This document shows, in pieces, positions 39,660 through 52,309 of a stretch of DNA of 64,000 nt; positions within the stretch are counted from its first letter, which is position 1, and each line of letters starts with the position of its first letter. Source of the stretch: Nostoc sp. HK-01 (GTDB lineage Bacteria; Cyanobacteriota; Cyanobacteriia; Cyanobacteriales; Nostocaceae); assembly GCA_003990705.1 (NCBI GenBank), contig AP018318.1:4405501-4469500 (forward strand). Reading direction: 5' to 3'. The position numbers and the translations under genes are program-made. The notes beneath the pieces were generated by a model. That model was given only the letters and a program-made list of their open reading frames with translations, searched no databases and was not told the origin of the DNA.

Positions 39660-40403
39660 ATGACTTTACCTCTAGACCTAAACCCAGAAAAAATCCCTCA
39701 ACACGTAGCCGTCATTATGGATGGTAACGGTAGATGGGCAACCAACCGAGGGCTACCCCGCATAGCCGGACATCGCCAAGGCGCAAGAACCCTTAAACAA
39801 CTATTACGCTACTGCAAAGATTGGGGAATTAAAGCCCTCACCGCCTACGCCTTCTCAACCGAAAATTGGCAACGTCCCATTGAAGAAGTAGACTTTCTTA
39901 TGCGCTTAATTGAAAGATTTCTGCGCCGGGAATTAGCGCAAATGCACCAAGAAGGAATCAAAATTTCCTTTATTGGTGATTTATCAGCCTTACCTCCATC
40001 TCTGCAAAAACAAATAGCTCATTCAATGACAGAGACATTCAATAATCAAGCAATTCATTTTACCCTTGCTGTCAATTACGGTAGCCGCAACGAAATTACT
40101 AGAGCCTGTCGTCAAGTAGCAGAACTCGTGGAACAAGGCAAAATCAATGCAGCAGCAGTTAATGAAACCTTGATAGAACAACACCTCTATACAGTTGATA
40201 CTCCCACCCCCGATTTACTGATTCGGACTAGTGGAGAGATGCGGTTGAGTAATTTTCTGTTGTGGCAAATGGCATATACAGAGATGTACTTTGCTGATAT
40301 TCTTTGGCCTGATTTTGACACAGAAGCATTTCATCAGGCGTTGTTGAGTTACCAACAGCGCGATCGCCGTTTCGGTAAAGTGAAGGCTGTTTTTTCCGCC
40401 TAA
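39660..40403 (+). CDS. uppS: Polyprenyl diphosphate synthase (undecaprenyl-PP synthase)
   Basis: The 247-residue protein contains all cis-prenyltransferase motifs: [19 protein letters not shown] with the catalytic Asp, [25 protein letters not shown], and [20 protein letters not shown] with TEMYF. It condenses isopentenyl diphosphate with farnesyl diphosphate to make the C55 carrier for peptidoglycan and glycans. The position directly after the diiron protein may reflect a lipid-related operon. The start at 39660 gives the normal N-terminus. Confidence 0.95.
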
Positions 40404-40574
40404 CACACAAGTGCGATCGCTGCCTTTACTTTATTCCTATATCTATTATCGCCATACCCTACGGAAAGCCGCTTACGCGTCTACATCCTCGTTAATCGGT
40501 GTTTTTTATCTAAAACTAAAGCACTAAATTAGCTGAAACAGTCCACTCATCGGTTGCTTTTAAATTAAAAAAGA

Positions 40575-41060
40575 TTAACAATTTTCTCCTGGCTGTTCAC
40601 AAGCACCAATACTCACCCAACTGCTAGAACCATTTTGCCAATGTTCTTTTTTCCATATTGGTGCGTTGTGTTTCAGGGTATCAATAGCATAGCGACACGC
40701 TTCAAACGCCTCACCCCGATGGGGACAACCAATAGCAACTAAAACGCTGATTTCTCCAACTTGTAACCGTCCAATGCGGTGATGAATTACAACTCGATTA
40801 ATCTCAGGCCAAAACGTGCGAATCTCAGCAGCAATTTGATAAAACACCTGCATAGCCATTGGTTCGTAGGCTTGATATTCTAAAGCAACCACAGGTTGTC
40901 CATCAGTATTATTGCGTACCATACCACTCATCACCACCACAGCACCATTAGCCGACGCATCAGCTTTAGCATAAATTTCCTCTAAAGATAATGGGGCAAA
41001 GGTAATCGCAAAACTATCTTCGATTCTCGGCTTGACTGGTGCAGTAAATGTATTGGTCAT
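40575..41060 (-). CDS. moaE: Molybdopterin synthase catalytic subunit MoaE
   Basis: The 161-residue protein has the MoaE motifs: SGMVRNNTDGQPVVALEYQA, VVIHHRIGRLQVGEISVLV, GCPHRGEAFEACRYAIDTLK and APIWKKEHW, including the active-site lysines. It transfers sulfur with MoaD to make molybdopterin. MoaD is not encoded in the window. The gene stands alone on the minus strand. Confidence 0.93.
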   Translation of the reverse strand: MTNTFTAPVKPRIEDSFAITFAPLSLEEIYAKADASANGAVVVMSGMVRNNTDGQPVVALEYQAYEPMAMQVFYQIAAEIRTFWPEINRVVIHHRIGRLQVGEISVLVAIGCPHRGEAFEACRYAIDTLKHNAPIWKKEHWQNGSSSWVSIGACEQPGENC

Positions 41061-41502
41061 AGCGAAGTTAATAATAATTCGTATAAGTAAGCATAGCTAC
41101 TACTTAAGTATATTGCTCTGGGGCAAAATGCTACCTCTTCCCTATATTGATAAATTTTGGGACATAACAATCTGGTAGCTCTTATTTATCAAAACAACCT
41201 CAAAACATTGACTGAAATTCAAGATAATTGATGTAAATTTACTTTAAAATCAAATTTGTTTTGTCATCCTCCTTAAGGAGTATTACTATAATTAAAATGA
41301 TAAGACCTGCTTGGTCTGTTATTTAGTTTTGCTTATAGTTCTGTTTGGACTTGAGAGCATTCACGACAAAATTTAACATCAATACTTTGACAATTTTTCT
41401 TCTTGATTAATATCTTTTGACACCAAGGTCATAATGAAACTTTTTTCACCTATTGAATCATGATGCCAGCGGCAATTATATAAATAATTTGGGTAAAATT
41501 TG
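41061..41502. other. Divergent intergenic region upstream of the first hybrid kinase
   Basis: This 442-bp spacer holds a small hairpin AGACC-tgctt-GGTCT at 41303-41317. Just upstream on the minus strand is a frame containing CxxC-like pairs (KNCQSIDVKFCRECSQVQ) that has no start codon and ends at about 41335. That frame is noted only as a possible decayed gene. Confidence 0.35.
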
Positions 41503-44313
41503 ATGGAAACTTTAATATGTAACTACGAAGTAGCAAGGTTAGAAGCTTTACAGCAGTATCAAATTCTAGATACTCCCCCAGAACAAGCATTTGATGATTT
41601 GGTATCATTAGCAGCACAGATTTGTGACACACCAATAGCCTTAATTAATTTTATTGATGTTAACCGTCAGTGGTTCAAAGCGAAAGTAGGGTTAGATATT
41701 CAGCAAATACCTGTCGGTATTGGCTTTTGTCGCTTTTGTCTAGAGAAAAAAGATATTGTAGTGATTCCTGACACTCTATTAGATGAAGATTTTGCTCAAG
41801 AAGTAGTTGTCACATCCCCACCTTATGTGAGATTTTACGCTGGTGTGCCTTTATTTGCGCCAAGAGGAGAAGTCATTGGGACTTTGTGTGTAATAGATAA
41901 CGTACCACGAGAAATTAGTCCCAAACAGGTAGAATCACTACAAGCTATTAGTCGCTTGATAGTTAGACAATTAGATATTCGCCGCAATTTGGGGGAACTT
42001 TCTCAGATAAAAACTGAGTACCAGCAAGCACAAGTAGCACTGCAAGAAAGTCAATCTACCCTGCACAGTTTCTTTGATAGTGCGCCGATGATGATGGGTG
42101 TTGTGGAATTAGGCGAAAATAATATCTTTCATGTTTCTGATAATTTGAGTGCAGCGCAGTTTTTTGGACTTACCCCCAAGATAATGCAAAATCGCTGCGA
42201 ACAGAAAATTGGCGTAGCACATTCTTATTTGCAACGGTGGCGACATTACTTTGACCAAGCGGAACAAACCCAATTACCTGTGAGGTTTGAAGATGTTTAC
42301 GATACTCCGCAAGGAAGAAAATGTTTGTCAGCCACTATCTCTGTAATTGTCGGCAGTTCCTCTGGGCGATCGCAATTTGCATATATAGTAGAGGACATTA
42401 GCGATCGCCAGCAAGCAGAAACACAATTACGCTGGAAAGAAACACTGTTACACTCCATGAATAGTGTCTCGCCACTGGCATTTTATGTTGTCGATAAATA
42501 TACCGATAACATCTTATATTTTAACGATCGCTTCTGTGAAATTTGGGGCATTGTCCACCTCAAAGAACTGATGGAACATCAACAATTGTTACACCAAGAT
42601 ATTCTTGCCGAAGTCTGCAAATCAATTGTTGATCTGCCGCGATTCATGAATTCTTGCCAAGTATTGCAACAAACAGATAACTGTTGTGTTACTGAAGATG
42701 AAATAGCCTTGACTGATGGGCGAACTATTCGGCGATTATCTACACAAATTTGCCAGCAAAATAATCAATATTGCGTCCGTTTATATATTTTTGAAGATAT
42801 CACAGTTCAGAAACAAACAGAACAAAAATTTCGGGAACAAGCCGCATTATTAGATGTGGCAACAGATGCCATTATTTTACGAGATTTATCAGATAAAATT
42901 TTACTTTGGAATCAAAGTGCTACCAATCTTTACGGGTGGACAACAGCAGAAGCATTGGGTAAAAATGCCAATCAATTATTAAATCACAACTGTTTACCAC
43001 AATATTCAGAAATTCGTAATCTAGTTTTAGAACATGGGCATTGGCAAGGAGAACTGCAAAAAAATAACCGTTCTGGAAAACAATTAATTGTTGAAAGTCG
43101 CTGGACATTGGTACGCGATGAACATAATCAAGCAAAATCAATTTTAGTTGTAGACACTGACATTACCCAGCGCAAACAATTAGAAAATCAATTTTTACGT
43201 ACCCAACGAATGGAGAGTATTGGTACTCTCGCCAGTGGTATTGCTCACGATTTAAATAATGTTTTATCGCCAATTTTAATGGCTGTACAGCTATTAAAAA
43301 ATAAAAACACAGAGCAAAATCAGCCGCAGATATTATCAATTATTGAAACTAATGTCAAACGTGGGGCAAATTTAGTTAAACAAGTGCTTTCTTTTGTGCG
43401 AGGAACCGAAGGCGATCGCACCATAATTCAAGTTAAGCATTTGATCATGGATATCCAGCAAATTATTCAACAAACATTTCCCAAATCCATAGAATTTATT
43501 GCAGAAATTCAACCAGATTTATCAACAGTTTGTGGTGATAGCACTCAACTACATCAAGTTTTGCTGAACTTATGTGTTAATGCCCGTGATGCTATGCCCA
43601 CAGGCGGAAATTTGAGTATTTCCGCCGAAAATATTTGGCTTGATGCAGATTATGTACAAATACATCTTGATGCTCAAGTTGGTGCATACATTGTCTTAAC
43701 AGTGAGTGATAGTGGAATTGGCATTAATAGTACTTTATTAGATAGAATATTTGAACCATTTTTTACCACAAAAGAATTTGGGAAAGGTACAGGGCTGGGT
43801 TTATCAACAGTCATGGGTATTATTAAAGGACATGGTGGTTTTATTACTGTGTCCAGTTGTATGGGTCAAGGCACAACCTTTAAAGTTTACTTACCAGCAG
43901 TGCATACAGAAGATGTAACTGAGATATGGGCAGAAGCAGAAATATCCAAAGGTCAAGGAGAATTGATTTTAGTTGTGGATGACGAGACCGCAATTCAGTC
44001 AATTACCGCCTCCGCCTTAGCAAACCATAACTACCAAACAATTTGCGCGAGTGACGGTATGGAAGCGATCGCAGTTTATACTCAGCATCAAAATAAAATT
44101 AGTGCGGCAATTATCGATATGATGATGCCTAACATGGATGGAGCCACAACCATTCACCAATTAACAACAATTAATCCTCAAATTCCTATCATAGCCGTCA
44201 GTGGACTAGCTACCAGTGAGCAAGTTCCGACTGGTCAAATCGTCTTTTTACCTAAACCCTACAGTACCCCAGAATTACTGGCATTTCTGCATAAAATTTT
44301 GCATTCACAGTGA
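41503..44313 (+). CDS. Hybrid sensor histidine kinase: GAF-PAS-PAS-PAS-HisKA-HATPase-REC
   Basis: The product has about 936 residues. An N-terminal GAF domain covers about 20-160 (FDDLVSLAAQICDTPIALIN, GTLCVIDNVPREIS) and lacks a bilin-type Cys-His. Three PAS domains follow to about 560. The HisKA phospho-acceptor lies in GIAHDLNNVLSPILMA (His near 581). The ATPase has NARDAMPTGG, SDSGIG and GTGLGLS boxes. A receiver at about 815-936 has its phosphorylation Asp in AIIDMMMPNMDG. The HisKA-REC half is a close paralogue of the gene at 48296. The ATG at 41503 follows a TTG at 41500. It belongs to the local phosphorelay cluster. Confidence 0.93.
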   Translation: METLICNYEVARLEALQQYQILDTPPEQAFDDLVSLAAQICDTPIALINFIDVNRQWFKAKVGLDIQQIPVGIGFCRFCLEKKDIVVIPDTLLDEDFAQEVVVTSPPYVRFYAGVPLFAPRGEVIGTLCVIDNVPREISPKQVESLQAISRLIVRQLDIRRNLGELSQIKTEYQQAQVALQESQSTLHSFFDSAPMMMGVVELGENNIFHVSDNLSAAQFFGLTPKIMQNRCEQKIGVAHSYLQRWRHYFDQAEQTQLPVRFEDVYDTPQGRKCLSATISVIVGSSSGRSQFAYIVEDISDRQQAETQLRWKETLLHSMNSVSPLAFYVVDKYTDNILYFNDRFCEIWGIVHLKELMEHQQLLHQDILAEVCKSIVDLPRFMNSCQVLQQTDNCCVTEDEIALTDGRTIRRLSTQICQQNNQYCVRLYIFEDITVQKQTEQKFREQAALLDVATDAIILRDLSDKILLWNQSATNLYGWTTAEALGKNANQLLNHNCLPQYSEIRNLVLEHGHWQGELQKNNRSGKQLIVESRWTLVRDEHNQAKSILVVDTDITQRKQLENQFLRTQRMESIGTLASGIAHDLNNVLSPILMAVQLLKNKNTEQNQPQILSIIETNVKRGANLVKQVLSFVRGTEGDRTIIQVKHLIMDIQQIIQQTFPKSIEFIAEIQPDLSTVCGDSTQLHQVLLNLCVNARDAMPTGGNLSISAENIWLDADYVQIHLDAQVGAYIVLTVSDSGIGINSTLLDRIFEPFFTTKEFGKGTGLGLSTVMGIIKGHGGFITVSSCMGQGTTFKVYLPAVHTEDVTEIWAEAEISKGQGELILVVDDETAIQSITASALANHNYQTICASDGMEAIAVYTQHQNKISAAIIDMMMPNMDGATTIHQLTTINPQIPIIAVSGLATSEQVPTGQIVFLPKPYSTPELLAFLHKILHSQ

Positions 44314-44370
44314 TAAATCAGTAAACACCATAGGGGAGATCAAAAAATTGATGACCAATGACTAATCACC

Positions 44371-45066
44371 ATGACTAATCAAAATTCGGCACTGATTCTG
44401 ATTGTCGATGACGACGATATAACGCGAATTCACTTGCGTCAACTTATGGAACATGCAGGATATCGAGTCGTAGAAGCTAGTAATGGTTCCGAAGCTATTA
44501 GTACCTACACAGATTTACATCCAGATATGGTGCTATTAGATGCCATTATGCCAGTCATGGATGGATTTACTTGTTGCGCTCAATTGCAAACATTCCCTGA
44601 TATTCAAGACACACCGATATTAATGATTACAGCAGCTTATGAGCCAGCCGCTGTAGAACGAGCTTTTGCTGTAGGTGCAACCGACTACATTACTAAACCA
44701 ATTCAATGGGTAGTACTATCCCACAGAATCCGCCATCTTTTGGCAGCATCTCGCGCCATCAAGCAATTACGGCAGCAAAACCAACAGGCGCAACTTCGAG
44801 AAGCCCAAATTAGAATTGCCCTAGAAGCCGCCCGTATGGGTACTTGGGACTGGGATATCAGCACCAATCAAGTTACTTGGTCAGATAACAAAGAAGCACT
44901 ATTTGGCTTAAAGCCGGGTAGTTTTGATGATCAGTATGAAACTTTTTTGAACTGTATTCACCCCCAAGACCGCCATTTTGTCAATATCTCGATCATGCAA
45001 GCTGTGCAAACAGACACAGAGTATGATGTGGAATTTCGGGCGTTGCTGAATAAAGGGATGAATTAA
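44371..45066 (+). pseudogene. 5' part of a REC-PAS-PAS-GAF-HisKA sensor gene, truncated by an IS
   Basis: Translation gives a receiver domain (ILIVDDDDITRIHLRQLMEH, phospho-Asp in VLLDAIMPVMDG, Lys in ITKPIQW) over residues 1-125, a coiled-coil linker and the first part of a PAS domain (EAARMGTWDWDISTNQVTW). The host sequence ends at 45038; the last codons up to TAA at 45064-45066 are IS sequence. The receiver could still be made as a truncated 231-residue protein. The remainder of the gene continues at 45793, and joining the halves across one copy of the 8-bp duplication restores DVEFRIVLPDLSIRW in frame. Confidence 0.9.
45031..45038. repeat. Target site duplication, left copy
   Basis: GAATTTCG flanks the IS on the left and is repeated exactly at 45793-45800. 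The 8-bp length suits IS1-family insertions. Confidence 0.92.
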
Positions 45067-45067
45067 T

Positions 45068-45409
45068 TTATATAGGTACAATTTGATACTTCAAATAATG
45101 AAGTAATAATTTAATTGAGTGTCTCAGCATTTGTTCTGATTTGGAATAGCATAAAGTTTTTCTGTGAAGGCGTGCAAGATAATGACGTAATCGGGTATTT
45201 TCATTTTCTACTCGCGTCATATATGTTTTACTCACAATTTGGTCTCCATCTGGTATAAAACTGGGGTAAACTTTCCAGCCATCGGTCACATAAAAATAGC
45301 TTTCCCACTGTTTCACAATTTCCCATAATGGCTCGAATGTTTCCGCACTATGGTCTCCTAAGACCCAGGCTAAAATACCTTGAGTAAAGTGATTTACTGC
45401 TGTCCACAA
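45068..45409 (-). CDS. IS1-family transposase, InsB-type catalytic half
   Basis: This frame carries the catalytic part of the transposase: WLWTAVNHFTQGILAWVLGD, DGWKVYP and the ending RVENENTRLRHYLARLHRKT then LCYSKSEQMLRHSI, the pattern of the IS1 DDE-type C-terminus. It has no RBS; its natural product is the InsAB' fusion made by -1 frameshifting from the upstream frame at the A8 run (45420-45427). Read through that shift, the joined protein continues ETFIGSKKNKIWLWTAV without a break, like the IS1 DE(L/M)WGFVGSK region. Confidence 0.88.
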   Translation of the reverse strand: MWTAVNHFTQGILAWVLGDHSAETFEPLWEIVKQWESYFYVTDGWKVYPSFIPDGDQIVSKTYMTRVENENTRLRHYLARLHRKTLCYSKSEQMLRHSIKLLLHYLKYQIVPI

Positions 45410-45753
45410 CCAGATTTTGTTTTTTTTGAACCTATGAATGTCTCTAATTCATCTAGTTCTCCAACTTCTGGTACAGCATCTTCTTGGGGTACGTCTGGCA
45501 GCTTTTCTCCTCTTTGTTTTACCCAAGAGATTATAGTAGTATGATGTACACCTTTAACACGTTCAATCCCACGAAAACCCATCCCATTAAGATACATTTT
45601 TAAACATTCTTGTTTAAGTTCCTCTGAGTATCCTTTTGGCGGATCGTACACATCAATAAATTGGCGATCGCAGTTAGTACAGATGTGATTTTGTTTACCT
45701 CTCCGTTTTCCATTCTTTCTAATTTCCGTAGACTCACAGTATGGACATTGCAC
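45394..45753 (-). CDS. IS1-family InsA-type DNA-binding protein
   Basis: The 119-residue protein has an N-terminal zinc ribbon (MQCPYCESTEIRKNGKRRG with HICTNC) and a helix-turn-helix (GMGFRGIERVKGVHHTTIIS). Its last residues (KKTKSGCGQQ) come from the unshifted frame. In IS1, InsA is a repressor and end-binding protein, and the -1 frameshifted fusion with InsB is the active transposase. Confidence 0.9.
   Translation of the reverse strand: MQCPYCESTEIRKNGKRRGKQNHICTNCDRQFIDVYDPPKGYSEELKQECLKMYLNGMGFRGIERVKGVHHTTIISWVKQRGEKLPDVPQEDAVPEVGELDELETFIGSKKTKSGCGQQ
45420..45427 (-). other. Programmed -1 frameshift site (A8)
   Basis: On the coding strand the sequence is GGTTCAAAAAAAACAAAATC. Slipping back one base on the A8 run changes the frame from TCA AAA AAA ACA to one that reads into the InsB-like part, as in the A6C signal of IS1. 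Confidence 0.75.
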
Positions 45754-45792
45754 AGTAGATTACCTCAATTCATCCCTCTATTATGCAACGCC

Positions 45793-45800
45793 GAATTTCG
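45793..45800. repeat. Target site duplication, right copy
   Basis: GAATTTCG, identical to 45031-45038, directly follows the IS end. Confidence 0.92.
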
Positions 45801-47613
45801 CATTGTTTTACCTGACCTGAGTATTCGCTGGTTAGTTAGCAAAGGTGTAGTTTTTCGGAATGCGGCTGGGGCAGCAGTGCGAATGTCTGGGATAGTGATA
45901 GATATTACTAAGCGTAAACAGGCAGAAGCCGAACTGCGGCAAAGTGAAGAGCGATTTCAAATTATTAGCCATGCAACTAACGATGTGATCTGGGATTGGG
46001 ATTTGCTCACTAATCAAGTTTGGTGGAATCAAGGTGTACAAACACTGTTTGGTTATTCATTGTCTCAATTGAATGCTGATTTAAGCTGGTGGTACGAACG
46101 CATACATCCAGAAGATCAAAAAAGAATCGAGACTGATATGTGGGATGCGATGAATCGCGGTCAACAATTCTGGTCGAATGAATACCGCTTTCGTTGTTAT
46201 GACAATTCCTATGCCGACATTTTAGATCGGGCTTATATCATCTATGACCAGACAGGCAGCCCTGTACGGATAATTGGTGCAATGATGGACATCACAGAAC
46301 GCAAGCGGGTACAGGCGCAACTACAATGGCAAAACTTGCGATCGCAATTATTTGCTGATATCACCTTAAAAATTCGTCAATCTCTACAAATTGACGAAAT
46401 TTTGCAAACCAGCGTCACGGAGGTACAAAAATTACTCCATACAGACCGCGTGTTAATTTTACAACTGCGCTCAAATGGTAAAGTTATCATCCTGAAGGAA
46501 GCTGTAGTTTCTGGTTTAGCAACAGCAGCAGACCTGGAAATAATTAACCAGACAACTTTTGATCCAATGTGTCTGGCAAAATATGCTCAGGGAACGATTA
46601 AGGTTATTAGTAACGTCGACCAAGAGCAAGCCAACATCTCAATAGCTTATCTCCAATTACTGCAACAATGGGGGGTCAAAGCCAAGCTCTCTGTGCCAAT
46701 TTTTCTGCAAAATCAGATCTGGGGCTTGCTGGTAGCCCATCAGTGCGTCCATCCCCGTCAGTGGAATAACTGGGAAATTGAACTTTTACAACAACTCGCA
46801 GATCAAATCGGTATTGCATTAGCCCAAAGCCAAATTTTAGAAACAGAAACTCGTCAACGCCAAGAACTGATCCGTTCTAACGAAGAACTGCAACAATTTG
46901 CCTTTATCGCCTCTCACGATTTACAAGAACCACTACGGAAAATTAAAACCTTTAGTGAACGGCTGATTAGTATCTTTGGCGACGCTTTACCCGCACCTGC
47001 ATCCGATTATCTAGAGCGAATGCAGAATGCCGTTTTGAGAATGCAGACTTTAATCGAAGATTTATTAACACTCTCACGGGTGACAACCAGAGCGCAACCT
47101 TCTATATCTGTGAATTTAGCGCAAATTACCCAAGAGGTATTGTCTGATTTAGAAGTGTTAATCCAGCAAACAGGCGCGACCATAGAAGTTAGAGATTTAC
47201 CCACAATTCCTGCTGATCCTCTACAAATGCGCCAATTAATGCAAAATCTGATTGGCAACGCCTTAAAATTTCATCGTCCACAAATGCCACCCATTGTTAA
47301 AATCTATAGTCAATATTTCCACAATCAATCAGATCAAGTTGTGGGCTGGGAACTTTGTCAAATTATCATTGAAGATAATGGGATTGGATTTGAACAAAAA
47401 TATAGCGATCGCATCTTTCAGATTTTTCAAAGGTTACATGGTCGTCGAGAATACGAAGGTACAGGCATTGGTTTAACTATCTGCCGCAAAATTGTCGAAC
47501 GGCATTTTGGCAAAATCACTGCTGAAAGTAAACCAGGACAAGGGACAAAATTTTTTGTAACTTTGCCGATGAATTCCCCTACAGAATTTTTATTCCTAGA
47601 GAGGGATTACTAA
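45793..47613 (+). pseudogene. 3' part of the IS-split sensor kinase gene (PAS-GAF-HisKA-HATPase)
   Basis: It starts with the second copy of the target duplication and encodes the end of the interrupted PAS (IVLPDLSIRWLVSKGVVFRN) and a second PAS (FQIISHATNDVIWDWDLLTN). A phytochrome-like GAF follows (VTEVQKLLHTDRVLILQLRS, LSVPIFLQNQIWGLLVAHQC). The position of the bilin Cys-His found in cyanobacteriochromes reads ISIAYLQLL, so the pigment attachment is absent. A Cph1-like kinase ends the gene (FAFIASHDLQEPLRKIKTF, EDNGIGF, GTGIGLTICRKI). The frame is open back into the IS to 45661 with a TTG there, so a fusion product or an internal start at about ATG 45883 is possible. Confidence 0.9.
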
Positions 47614-47832
47614 AACTACTCAAAATAAGGTTTATTGGACAAATACAACCTTTAATTACCAGCAAATGACAAAAAAAGCCACAAAATTAAACTCTTGAAA
47701 GCTAGACATAAAAGCTATTTTACTGCTGAATTCTGCCGTATATCCCCAGCTAAATTCAAAATTGCGAATATGAGTTTTTTTTCCAACTTTAATTCATACT
47801 AATAACTAGATTGTAGAAGGAGAAATTACAGA

Positions 47833-48330
47833 GTGAAGGGTCGGCAACCAACCGTGACTATCTTAATGGCTGATGATGATGATGATGACAGTATGTTAAT
47901 CCGTGAGGCGATTATCATTAGTAAATTGCCAATTGATTTACATGCAGTGAGTAATGGTGAAGAATTGATGGATTATCTCTGTCATCGTGGTCAATACGCT
48001 GATACCAGTCTGGCACCACGCCCAGGCTTAATTTTACTAGACTTAAATATGCCCAAAAAAAATGGTATTGAGGTACTTAAAGAAATCAAAACTGACCCCG
48101 AACTCCGACCGATTCCTATTATCGTCCTCACGACATCCACGGCAGAAGAAAATATTGATCACACTTACAGCTTGGGTGCTAATTCTTACATAGTCAAACC
48201 GATGACATTTTCTGCCTTAGTCGAACTTATGAAAACATTAGGGAAATACTGGTTTGAAACTGTGGAATTACCACTAGCAGTAGCTGGAGGAAAAAATGAA
48301 CAAAAACCCAATCAGAGTTCTGCTAATTGA
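47833..48330 (+). CDS. Rcp1-like single-domain response regulator
   Basis: The 165-residue protein is one receiver domain with an acidic pocket in LMADDDDDDSMLIREAI, the phospho-Asp in LILLDLNMPKKNGIEVL, a Thr in VLTTSTAEENI and the Lys in NSYIVKPMTF. The form matches Rcp1-type regulators that pair with phytochrome-like kinases, and it directly follows the split phytochrome-like kinase gene. The GTG at 47833 has AGAAGGAGA about 10 nt upstream; an internal ATG at 47866 would remove the first 11 residues. It overlaps the next gene by 35 bp. Confidence 0.9.
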   Translation: MKGRQPTVTILMADDDDDDSMLIREAIIISKLPIDLHAVSNGEELMDYLCHRGQYADTSLAPRPGLILLDLNMPKKNGIEVLKEIKTDPELRPIPIIVLTTSTAEENIDHTYSLGANSYIVKPMTFSALVELMKTLGKYWFETVELPLAVAGGKNEQKPNQSSAN

Positions 48331-50188
48331 TGATGACGAAGATGATTATATTTTGACTCGTGATTGGTTCGGTGAATTTCAAGCAGATGGCTGTGAGTTG
48401 TCATGGGTGGATAATTATGCAGATGCAAAGCAAGCGATCGCTGCAAATCAACATGATATATATCTTGTAGACTATCGTTTAGGCATCCACAATGGACTGG
48501 AACTTTTACGCGAAGCCGTTGTCAATGGTTGTGCTGCACCAATAATTTTGCTCACAGGTCAAGGTGATAGAGAAATTGACATTGAAGCGATGAAAGCCGG
48601 CGCAGCCGATTATTTAGAAAAAAGCCAATTAACAGCACCTTTATTAGAACGTTCCCTTCGTTACGCCATCGAACGCAAACAAACAGAACAAAAAATCCGC
48701 GAACAAGCCGCATTACTAGATGTCGCTACCGATGCAATTTTTGTCCGCGATTTAGATGACCAAATTTTATTTTGGAACAAAGCCGCAGAAACTTTATATG
48801 AGTGGCGCAAAGACCAAGTAATTGGTAAAAAAACATCATCACTATGGCAAGAAAAAACCTTAGCTCGCTTGCAAGAAGCATTACGGTTTTTGATGAAAAA
48901 CGGCTCTTGGCAAGGAGAATTACACCAAACAACAACATCCAATAAAAAAATTATTGTCGAAAGTCGTTGGACATTAGTGCGCGATTTTGCACATCAACCC
49001 CAAGCAATTTTAGTAGTAAATACTGATATTACTCAAAAACAACAACTAGAAGCACAATTTTTGAGGGCGCAAAGATTAGAAAGTATTGGCACACTAGCCA
49101 GTGGTATCGCCCATGACCTCAATAATGTCTTAGCGCCAATTTTAATGACCGCCCAACTTTTAGAATCACAGTTACAAGATGAGCGTTCTCGTAGACTGAT
49201 ACCAATATTAACGGCTAACGCTAAACGTGGGGCAAATTTAGTCAAGCAAGTACTGTCTTTTACGCGCGGTATTGAGGGAGAACGCACACTTTTGCAGTTC
49301 AAGCACTTAATTCTCGAAATTCAGCAAATTGTCAAAGAAACCTTTCCCAAAACCATAGAAATTACAACTCGACTACCGCAAAACCTCTGGGTGATATCTG
49401 GTGATGCAACTCAACTACATCAAGTGCTGATGAATTTGTGCGTTAATGCCCGTGATGCCATGCCTAATGGCGGAATGTTGAAAATTACTGCCGAAAACCT
49501 TCTGGTTGATGAAAATTATGCCAATATGCACATTGATGCTAAAGTTGGCCCTTATATTGTTATTTCTGTGATTGACACAGGTCTGGGTATTTCTACAGAA
49601 ATATTAGATCGCATTTTTGAGCCATTTTTTACGACTAAAGAACTTGGTAAAGGTACGGGACTAGGACTTTCTACAGTCCTGGGAATTGTTAAAAACCACG
49701 CTGGTTTTATCAGTGTCTACAGTGAAGAAGGGCAAGGTAGTCAATTTAAAATATATTTACCCGCACAGCAAGTCACAGAAACCCTGGAAGAACTAGAACC
49801 TGTATTTCCTGGCGGTAACGGAGAACTAATTTTGATTGTCGATGATGAACCTGCTATTCGGGATATTACCAAAACATCTCTCGAAAGCTACAACTACAAA
49901 GCCATCACAGCCAGCGACGGCATTGAGGCCATTGCTTTGTACGCCGAACATCGAGATGAAATTTCTCTAGTATTAACAGATATGGTCATGCCATCTATGG
50001 ATGGTCTTACTACTATCCGCACATTGCAAAAAATTAACCCAGATGTCAAAATTATTGCCATTAGTGGGCTGGCTTCTAGTGATAAGGTGAATGCCGCTTA
50101 TGATATTGGGATTAAAGCTTTTTTGTCTAAACCTTACACAGCTAATCAGTTGTTAGAAGCAATTAGCTTGATTAAAAATCATAACTAA
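48296..50188 (+). CDS. Hybrid histidine kinase: REC-PAS-HisKA-HATPase-REC
   Basis: The 630-residue protein begins with a receiver (VLLIDDDEDDYILTRDWFGE, phospho-Asp in IYLVDYRLGIHNG) covering 1-125. A PAS domain follows, then HisKA with GIAHDLNNVLAPILMTAQLL (His near 270). The ATPase boxes are NARDAMPNGG, DTGLGIS and GTGLGLS. The C-terminal receiver has LVLTDMVMPSMDG. The kinase half is strongly similar to the gene at 41503, implying duplication. GGAGG lies 5 nt before ATG, within the preceding gene, so translation is coupled to the Rcp1-like regulator. With a receiver at each end it is built for a multistep phosphorelay. Confidence 0.93.
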   Translation: MNKNPIRVLLIDDDEDDYILTRDWFGEFQADGCELSWVDNYADAKQAIAANQHDIYLVDYRLGIHNGLELLREAVVNGCAAPIILLTGQGDREIDIEAMKAGAADYLEKSQLTAPLLERSLRYAIERKQTEQKIREQAALLDVATDAIFVRDLDDQILFWNKAAETLYEWRKDQVIGKKTSSLWQEKTLARLQEALRFLMKNGSWQGELHQTTTSNKKIIVESRWTLVRDFAHQPQAILVVNTDITQKQQLEAQFLRAQRLESIGTLASGIAHDLNNVLAPILMTAQLLESQLQDERSRRLIPILTANAKRGANLVKQVLSFTRGIEGERTLLQFKHLILEIQQIVKETFPKTIEITTRLPQNLWVISGDATQLHQVLMNLCVNARDAMPNGGMLKITAENLLVDENYANMHIDAKVGPYIVISVIDTGLGISTEILDRIFEPFFTTKELGKGTGLGLSTVLGIVKNHAGFISVYSEEGQGSQFKIYLPAQQVTETLEELEPVFPGGNGELILIVDDEPAIRDITKTSLESYNYKAITASDGIEAIALYAEHRDEISLVLTDMVMPSMDGLTTIRTLQKINPDVKIIAISGLASSDKVNAAYDIGIKAFLSKPYTANQLLEAISLIKNHN

Positions 50189-50212
50189 GAGTCAATAGTC
50201 AATAGTCATTTG
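50189..50212. repeat. STRR heptamers after the signalling cluster
   Basis: AGTCAATAGTCAATAGTCAT, about three heptamers, lies between convergent genes. Confidence 0.6.
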
Positions 50213-50220
50213 TTCGTTGA

Positions 50221-50757
50221 TTAATCTCCAATTAACTCCACTGCATCTCGTCCATCCAAATCTTGTAAATAAACTTTGACCACTTCTTCTTTAGCTGTGG
50301 GTAATTGCTTACCAACAAAGTCTGCTTGAATTGGCAGTTCTCGATGACCCCGGTCTACCAACACCGCTAAACGAATGATTTCTGGTCTACCATACTCAGT
50401 CACAGCGTTTAAAGCTGCGCGAATTGTTCTCCCTTTGAAAATTACATCATCAACTAGGACAACGGTTTTTCCGGTCAGGTCAAAAGGGATATCGGTTTTG
50501 GCAGGAGTCCGCAAGCCAATTTTGTCAAGGTCATCTCGATAAAAAGTAATATCTAATGCTCCTACAGGCACGGTGACACCTTCTAGTATCTCAATTTGAC
50601 GTGCCAATGATTCTGCTATGGGTACTCCTCTAGTATAAATACCCATAAGTACCAGTTGCGATAAATCACGCGTTCGTTCGACAATTTGCGAGGCTAGGCG
50701 GGTTAAGGTACGCCGCAAGTCTTCTGATGAGAGAATTTCAACTACTTTTGCACACAT
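50221..50757 (-). CDS. pyrR: Bifunctional pyr operon regulator / uracil phosphoribosyltransferase PyrR
   Basis: The 178-residue protein carries the PRPP-binding loop [18 protein letters not shown] and the flanking [18 protein letters not shown] typical of PyrR. In Gram-positive bacteria PyrR binds pyr mRNA; in cyanobacteria the RNA-binding role is uncertain and the transferase activity is weaker evidence-based. No pyr genes are adjacent. It is downstream of cbiB on the same strand with an 81-bp gap that carries STRR units. Confidence 0.9.
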
Positions 50758-50763
50758 AAGGTA

Positions 50764-50829
50764 TGGTCAAAGGTCAATAGTCAATAGTCAAAGGTCAACT
50801 TGAACTATAGACTATTGACCATTGACTTA
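50764..50829. repeat. STRR inverted array between pyrR and cbiB
   Basis: AGGTCAATAGTCAATAGTCA on the left faces ACTATTGACCATTGACT on the right, able to form a stem between the two genes. Confidence 0.6.
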
Positions 50830-50838
50830 TTATTTCTA

Positions 50839-51798
50839 TCATGACCTGTTTGGGAGACAGAATAATATAGCGATCGCTATTCCTAACCACAATAAAAAAC
50901 TATAGCGAGTTAATTGCAATGCCTGATGAATTGTTGTCGGTGTAATGGGGTAAATGGCATCTCCTAGGAATGGTTTTTCTTTAGCTACACCCCGATACCA
51001 ATTTATCCCTCCCATCTGCACACCCAAAATCGCTGCATAAGCACACTCACTCCAACCAGAGTTGGGACTGGGGTCTGAAATAGCATCTCTGCGACATATC
51101 CGCCACACAAACAATGGTTTACCAGATAACAATGCCAAGGTAATTACAGTTAAGCGACAAGGTAGCCAAGTTAAATAATCTTCTAACCGCGCACAAAACC
51201 AACCTAAATAAGTGTATGGTGCTTCCTTATAACCCACCATTGAATCTAAAGTGCTGCTGGCTTTATATGCCAAAGCTAGAGGAACTGCACCTAAGTTTGG
51301 TATACAAGCACCAACAATGGCATAAAAAAGCGGAGCCATCACTGCATCTGTAGCATTTTCGGTGACAGTTTCTAAAACAGCACGCAAAATTTCTGCTTCT
51401 GACAAATTTTGCGTATCTCGACCAACATAATTACTTAAAGTCTGACGCGCTACTGATAAATTGCCGGCAATTAAGGGTTGTAAAACATCGGTTGCGGCTG
51501 TTCGCAAACTTCGTAACGCAAAACAGCTGGCGAGGATAATACTTTCTATAACTATTGCCAATATTGGATGTAACCATCCGGCAATTTGAACTGTTAACCA
51601 ACCTATACAGCCACTACCAATGATTAAAATTATTCCCAGCCAAATTCCGGCAATTCTTTGTGTTATGGAATTTTGACATATCCGCAACCAAAATTTTGTG
51701 AGGCGAGAAATTATCCATCCCATCACTTGTACTGGATGAGGCCAACCCCAAGGATCACCTATTAAGAAATCTAAAATTGCGGCGATGATTAATGTCAT
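50839..51798 (-). CDS. cbiB: Adenosylcobinamide-phosphate synthase CbiB/CobD
   Basis: The 319-residue protein has about five hydrophobic segments and the CbiB motifs DFLIGDPWGWPHPVQVMG at the start, VETVTENATDAVMAPLFYA and YRGVAKEKPFLGD near the end. It joins aminopropanol phosphate to adenosylcobyric acid at the membrane in cobalamin synthesis. It is downstream of the Rrf2 regulator with a 67-bp gap on the same strand. The SUMT/chelatase genes at 26747-28245 serve an earlier part of the same route. Confidence 0.92.
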   Translation of the reverse strand: MTLIIAAILDFLIGDPWGWPHPVQVMGWIISRLTKFWLRICQNSITQRIAGIWLGIILIIGSGCIGWLTVQIAGWLHPILAIVIESIILASCFALRSLRTAATDVLQPLIAGNLSVARQTLSNYVGRDTQNLSEAEILRAVLETVTENATDAVMAPLFYAIVGACIPNLGAVPLALAYKASSTLDSMVGYKEAPYTYLGWFCARLEDYLTWLPCRLTVITLALLSGKPLFVWRICRRDAISDPSPNSGWSECAYAAILGVQMGGINWYRGVAKEKPFLGDAIYPITPTTIHQALQLTRYSFLLWLGIAIAILFCLPNRS

Positions 51799-51865
51799 AC
51801 AATTTTGGATTTTGGATTTTAGATTTTGGATTGGATAAGGGTTGATTGGTGAGTTTGATCATTGA

Positions 51866-52309
51866 CTAAACCACAAAACTCGCTTCTTCTCCTAACGATG
51901 CTTGCCAACTGCGGGCATCGTAATAGAGATCTGCCAGTGTAATACTGTATAAAGCTTCTTTAAGTTTTTGATTGAGTCTTTGCCAGAGAGTGTATGTTAC
52001 CCAATCTTCAGCCTGGATTGGTGTTGGGTGGCGGTCGGGAATATGGGTAATGGTTTCACCGACGGCTTCTAATATTTGTCCAATGGAGATTTCTCTTGGT
52101 TCTCTTGCTAGTTGATAGCCGCCAATGCTACCACGCACTGATTTAACTAACCCCGAACGACGCATTTCTATGAGCAATTTTTCTAAGTAAGGTGCAGGAA
52201 TATCTTGGCGTTGAGCGATCGCTCTGACAGATACAGGCCCGTAATCTGGCTGTAAGCTTAAATCTAGCAATGCCTTGACACTGTAATGTCCTTTGGTAGT
52301 TAGTTTCAT
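51866..52309 (-). CDS. Rrf2-family transcriptional regulator without cysteines
   Basis: The 147-residue protein starts MKLTTKGHYSVKALLDLSLQ and keeps the Rrf2 winged helix (VSVRAIAQRQDIPAPYLEKL, then GGYQLAREPREISIG). No cysteine occurs anywhere in the protein, so it cannot bind an Fe-S cluster through the IscR three-cysteine motif. It is therefore a cluster-free or differently sensing member of the family. It is divergently arranged with the cyAbrB gene across a 655-bp spacer. Confidence 0.9.
   Translation of the reverse strand: MKLTTKGHYSVKALLDLSLQPDYGPVSVRAIAQRQDIPAPYLEKLLIEMRRSGLVKSVRGSIGGYQLAREPREISIGQILEAVGETITHIPDRHPTPIQAEDWVTYTLWQRLNQKLKEALYSITLADLYYDARSWQASLGEEASFVV

Follow-up and report, generated by a model that had tools for sequence, protein, structure and literature searches.

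Insertion sequences of the IS1 family have terminal inverted repeats of about 20-35 bp, generate target duplications of about 8-9 bp, and carry two overlapping open reading frames with a slippery A-run for -1 frameshifting, the run being A6C in IS1 of Escherichia coli. In Synechocystis sp. PCC 6803, regulatory genes have been hit by insertion sequences of other kinds; for example, one ISY203 copy interrupts the histidine kinase gene hik32. ISY203b, e and g are reported to be absent from strain GT-G of this organism and were proposed as specific to GT-Kazusa and/or GT-S (PMC4632739), and an IS5 element is described to have inactivated, by its transposition, a regulatory gene of a recombinant strain (PMC8066212). 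Moreover, recently active IS elements in cyanobacteria and archaea were mapped in 2008 (PMC2246112), and the available passages of that paper contain no mention of Nostoc or of the genome considered here (the word 'nostoc' occurs 0 times). Among the papers listed by a literature search of titles and abstract openings, from whose coverage most subscription journals fall out, none names the element or the insertion described below.

Herein we analysed a window of 64,000 nucleotides from Nostoc sp. HK-01, in which a 754-bp IS1-family insertion splits a sensor kinase gene. The case is like the Synechocystis insertions in that a regulatory gene is hit, whereas the elements and the organism are different. 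That the insertion took place is practically certain, and for the whole statement, namely the insertion together with the loss of function of an accessory kinase, we would give a probability of about 0.85.

The inserted element and the split kinase gene

The element occupies positions 45039-45792 of the window with its transposase on the minus strand, as delimited by its repeats, profile matches and genome copies. Its terminal inverted repeats of 26 nt, at 45039-45064 on the low-coordinate end and at 45767-45792 on the high-coordinate end, match at 23 of 26 positions (88%), and the direct repeat flanking it, GAATTTCG, agrees at 8 of 8 positions and represents the target-site duplication, with the left copy at 45031-45038 and the right copy at 45793-45800. 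Two minus-strand frames make up the transposase: an insA-like frame at 45394-45753 for the zinc-binding N-terminal part, which covers positions 1-114 of the 199 in profile NF033558 (transpos_IS1) and also matches IS1_IS1595_Zn, and an insB'-like frame at 45068-45409 for the catalytic part, which covers positions 116-199. The two halves score 130.8 and 115.4 bits respectively against this profile, both above its cut-off of 100; in the Pfam search the insB' half matches PF03400 (DDE_Tnp_IS1), and no match was returned for the insA half. The overlap between insA and insB' holds AAAAAAAAC, with an A8C run at 45419-45427 of the plus strand, and a scripted -1 reading at this run gives one fused protein of 228 residues. 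Since the IS1 family does so, insA is probably joined to insB' in the cell by a -1 frameshift at the A8C run, which differs from the A6C of the E. coli element. Altogether the length of 754 bp, the imperfect 26-nt ends, the duplications of 7-8 bp, the IS1-type transposase and the two overlapping frames with a slippery A-run, the last feature being read from the sequence only, make the element alike to the IS1 family with its InsA and InsAB' proteins and programmed -1 frameshift. The family, boundaries, perfect duplication and repeats proposed by an initial annotation of this DNA all hold; the element is classed by profile and ends. An Rfam scan of 40000-52000 returned 0 matches.

The interrupted gene, hereafter HK2, lies on the plus strand. 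Its upstream fragment (44371-45066) encodes a receiver domain (REC) and the first part of a PAS domain (Response_reg at residues 9-120 and PAS_3 at 168-228 in Pfam); the frame is native up to 45038, then takes in 8 residues encoded by the element and ends within it at a stop (45066), and the predicted product from the native start now has 231 residues consisting of REC and a partial PAS. The downstream fragment (45793-47613) holds the rest of the first PAS, a second PAS, GAF, HisKA and HATPase_c by Pfam, and with 42.9 bits to PF00512 and 86.5 bits to PF02518 this half is that of a two-component histidine kinase. When 45039-45800 (762 bases) is removed by script, 2481 bases are left, that is 826 codons and a stop with 0 internal stops, which read DVEFRIVLPDLSIRW at the join and have the architecture REC-PAS-PAS-GAF-HisKA-HATPase. 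With the N-terminal half as query, no second copy of this half was found in the own genome, where the next best match has 47% identity over 138 residues.

Uninterrupted orthologues and identical copies

Ten other genomes of the genus (G001-G010) were searched for the gene, and seven of them (G001, G002, G005, G007, G008, G009 and G010) have an uninterrupted orthologue with 82-91% identity over the N-terminal 221 residues, with open frames of 830-858 codons by the tool's count. Across the join, all seven run on without a break. The DNA at the insertion site was seen for six of them, G007 being the exception, and reads GAATTTCG in five of the six and GAGTTTCG in G009; in this last genome the match is interrupted between residues 293 and 389, the second PAS region being different and the join itself contiguous. 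In G003, G004 and G006 no orthologue was found, the best matches being 48-50% identical over 135-138 residues, and the interval between moaE and pyrR, the genes that border the signalling genes here, contains no orthologue either. Calothrix sp. NIES-4101 (L041) and Iningainema tapete (L042) gave only partial, rearranged matches and were not counted as orthologues. The restoration of one continuous frame by the join had been claimed from the window itself, with an alignment to related strains named as the check that could overturn it; the 826 open codons and the seven orthologues reading through the site agree with the claim, and as the alignment found a contiguous orthologue in seven of ten relatives, the earlier interpretation stands.

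By nucleotide comparison, the own genome has 14 full-length copies of the element, 11 of which are identical over 754/754 bases with the same ends, while the three divergent ones (L032 at 87%, L033 at 81% and L034 at 74%) and a fragment (L035) were left out of this identical count. Each of the 11 identical copies has a perfect target duplication, which is 8 bp in nine and 7 bp in two; A and T make up 67 of the 86 duplicated bases (78%), and 60% of the window. Because all these copies share the same ends and have perfect duplications of their own, and because all seven orthologues read through the site, the insertion is not a matter of chance. So many identical copies are also a classic source of misjoins, and the split could be regarded as an assembly artefact of the repeated element; but the two flanks belong to one and the same orthologue, and the 8-bp target duplication at the two ends would not arise from a misjoin, which leaves this reading hardly credible.

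As for the age of the insertion, the initial annotation called it recent, for which a perfect duplication alone would be no proof, and the 11 identical copies have borne this out. They form a recent burst, and in this lineage the element either still moves or did so until very recently. The divergent copies and the fragment argue against a general homogenisation of the element family. One of the divergent copies (L033, 1595-2401) lacks a perfect duplication and, at 807 bp, exceeds the window copy by 53 bases; another (L032, 1526-2279) has a perfect 8-bp duplication and a stop codon inside insA. Among the other ten genomes the closest copies of the element are 89% identical (in G006), and G002, which is the closest relative by the split gene, has no match to it at E up to 0.001. 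Relatives of the element are found on four Nostoc plasmid records, and because they are only 82.7-91.9% identical over 18-100% of its length, the plasmid search, which may omit own-genome records, yielded no direct source. With the 11 identical copies, the recency of the insertion is well supported.

Constraint, domain make-up and neighbourhood of the kinase

Between the window and G002 the split gene has a dN/dS of 0.174 (dS 0.174, dN 0.030), and the six pairs among four relatives whose orthologues lack the element give 0.138-0.196. Counted at columns where G007, G008 and G010 agree, the window has 15 lineage-specific amino-acid changes and G002 has 14. Such values support the view that the gene was under constraint before the insertion, and with it the former claim that the host gene had been functional; by the same values, the insertion would be young relative to the split from G002. 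One may still suppose that it was already a pseudogene and that the element landed in decaying DNA, considering that the gene is accessory, with no orthologue in three of the ten relatives, and that it evolves faster than the neighbouring kinase gene HK3, for which dN/dS of the G002 pair is 0.064. Against this, outside the element the frame stays open for 826 codons, the dN/dS of the window-G002 pair falls within the range of the element-free pairs and there is no amino-acid excess on the window branch; we thus consider a prior pseudogene very improbable.

In the course that we propose, an active IS1-family element transposed into the first PAS domain of the accessory kinase gene and duplicated 8 bp of the target; the mechanism was presumably the one common to IS1, with an InsAB' transposase made by frameshifting. 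Translation from the native start would then end 8 residues into the element and separate the receiver from the kinase, and the most likely outcome is the loss of function of this kinase. Alternatively, two pieces could be expressed, a REC-PAS fragment on its own and a PAS-GAF-kinase devoid of REC that starts in or just after the element, whereby signalling would be rewired and not lost. In fact the element has an open plus-strand frame that extends from 45661 into the kinase half, the region 45793-47610 keeps PAS, GAF, HisKA and HATPase, an internal start could make the downstream half, and outward-directed promoter hexamers in the ends of elements like IS1 are mentioned in the available passages of PMC2246112. 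Open frames of the kind that reach from the element into the kinase half are mechanical, however, and promoter-like sites in 45030-45960 stay at chance level, with three found, all on the plus strand, and 2.6 expected over both strands, so that we regard two expressed pieces as unlikely. The loss of function is kept as the preferred outcome for the interrupted allele; the strain may hold a mixed population of alleles, of which the assembly shows one.

The split gene had been labelled phytochrome-like, and this label stands only in part. Among solved structures, its GAF domain comes closest to a histidine kinase GAF (8k9o) and to RcaE (7ckv), both of them cyanobacteriochrome GAFs, and for its kinase core the best match is 8f71, followed by bacteriophytochromes among others; these latter matches may have led to the label. 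Nevertheless no PHY family is found among the Pfam matches at E up to 0.001, and at the position of the RcaE cysteine, which we take to be the bilin-binding one, the window and one relative have A and three other relatives have P, T and D, the cysteine being absent in five of five. With the canonical cysteine so replaced, unlike in the cyanobacteriochrome GAFs, a covalent bilin photoreceptor is not supported by the sequence, and neither mark of a phytochrome or cyanobacteriochrome, a PHY domain or the canonical cysteine of a bilin-binding GAF, is found in the gene. Another nearby cysteine, that of DPMC, is shared by the window, G002 and G008, with Y in its place in G007 and G010. The GAF at 46309-46860 is thus cyanobacteriochrome-like yet devoid of the canonical bilin cysteine, and it is perhaps a re-purposed domain.

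HK2 stands in a row of plus-strand signalling genes between moaE and pyrR, with the order HK1, HK2, response regulator and HK3. HK1 (41500-44313) has the architecture GAF-PAS-HisKA-HATPase-REC, the response regulator (47833-48330) is of a single domain, and HK3 (48296-50188) is REC-PAS-HisKA-HATPase-REC. All three look intact by their Pfam matches and by comparison with relatives, HK1 also by its open reading frame. More specifically, the alignment of HK1 with G008 spans residues 2-937 and that with G006 residues 1-937, and HK3 aligns over all 630 residues in five of the eight relatives having it at the locus and over 626-628 in the other three, which is in keeping with the initial remark that the other kinase genes of the cluster look intact. 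HK1 and HK3 are paralogues with about 58% identity over their shared part.

By matches over 45% identity, the moaE-pyrR interval (40575-50757 in the window) is a variable two-component cassette of none to four genes in the genus. All four signalling genes are present in G008 and G009 as in the window; G002 has a remnant of HK1 together with HK2, the regulator and HK3; G005 and G010 have HK2, the regulator and HK3 between moaE and pyrR; G006 has HK1 and HK3, and G004 the regulator and HK3; and in G003 moaE adjoins pyrR with no signalling genes between. In the 10 kb examined of G001, moaE and HK2 are found without the regulator or HK3, pyrR being elsewhere, and G007 has HK2, the regulator and HK3 on a 10.7-kb contig without moaE and pyrR, hence a weaker evidence on the interval. 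Because the gene content of the interval varies in this way, HK2 is classed by these comparisons as accessory in the genus, and this status fits the survival of the insertion.

Other insertions and their meaning for the strain

Gene targets were assigned to the other copies only if their junction was reached by an open frame of 80 codons or more. Such a frame is found at both sides for L001, L003, L006 and L008, at one side for L010 and L031, and at neither for L002, L004, L005, L007 and L009 (5 of the 11 copies). At L006 (1500-2253; C1:1772787-1773540 of the own genome) an identical copy splits a cas6 gene, for which six of the ten relatives (G002, G004, G005, G006, G007 and G009) have homologues with 86-89% identity and frames of 276-292 codons, and G008 has only shorter pieces. 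Other Cas6-family matches exist in the own genome, and the one at C3:100686-101048 spans the whole Pfam model in a 328-codon frame, with only about 32% identity to the split cas6. At L008 (1500-2253; C1:5752512-5753265) an identical copy splits a third paralogue of acsF, the gene for Mg-protoporphyrin IX monomethyl ester cyclase; the own genome keeps two other paralogues, whose frames have 361 and 365 codons. Homologues of the split gene are 90-92% identical with frames of 357-365 codons in six of ten relatives (G001, G003, G004, G005, G008 and G010). Moreover at L003 (1507-2260; C1:1653765-1654518) an identical copy appears to split a methyltransferase-domain gene. With the downstream piece only as query, its homologues are found in seven of ten relatives with 84-95% identity and frames of 255-295 codons, those of G007 and G008 having one stop each inside the match, and the other piece has no Pfam or NCBIfam family match. 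One might imagine an adaptive rewiring, in which the freed REC-less kinase and the REC-PAS fragment alter signalling via the neighbouring response regulator, with the kinase and cas6 being among accessory regulatory and defence genes hit in one burst; we hold this for quite improbable.

To sum up, the insertion into HK2 shows a common type of event in a clean but unremarkable form, and the understanding of IS elements or of two-component systems is unchanged by it. It provides a probable natural knockout for which the seven intact orthologues are an internal control, and users of the strain should reckon with interruptions in the genes for a sensor kinase, a Cas6 and a third AcsF paralogue, and apparently also in a methyltransferase gene.
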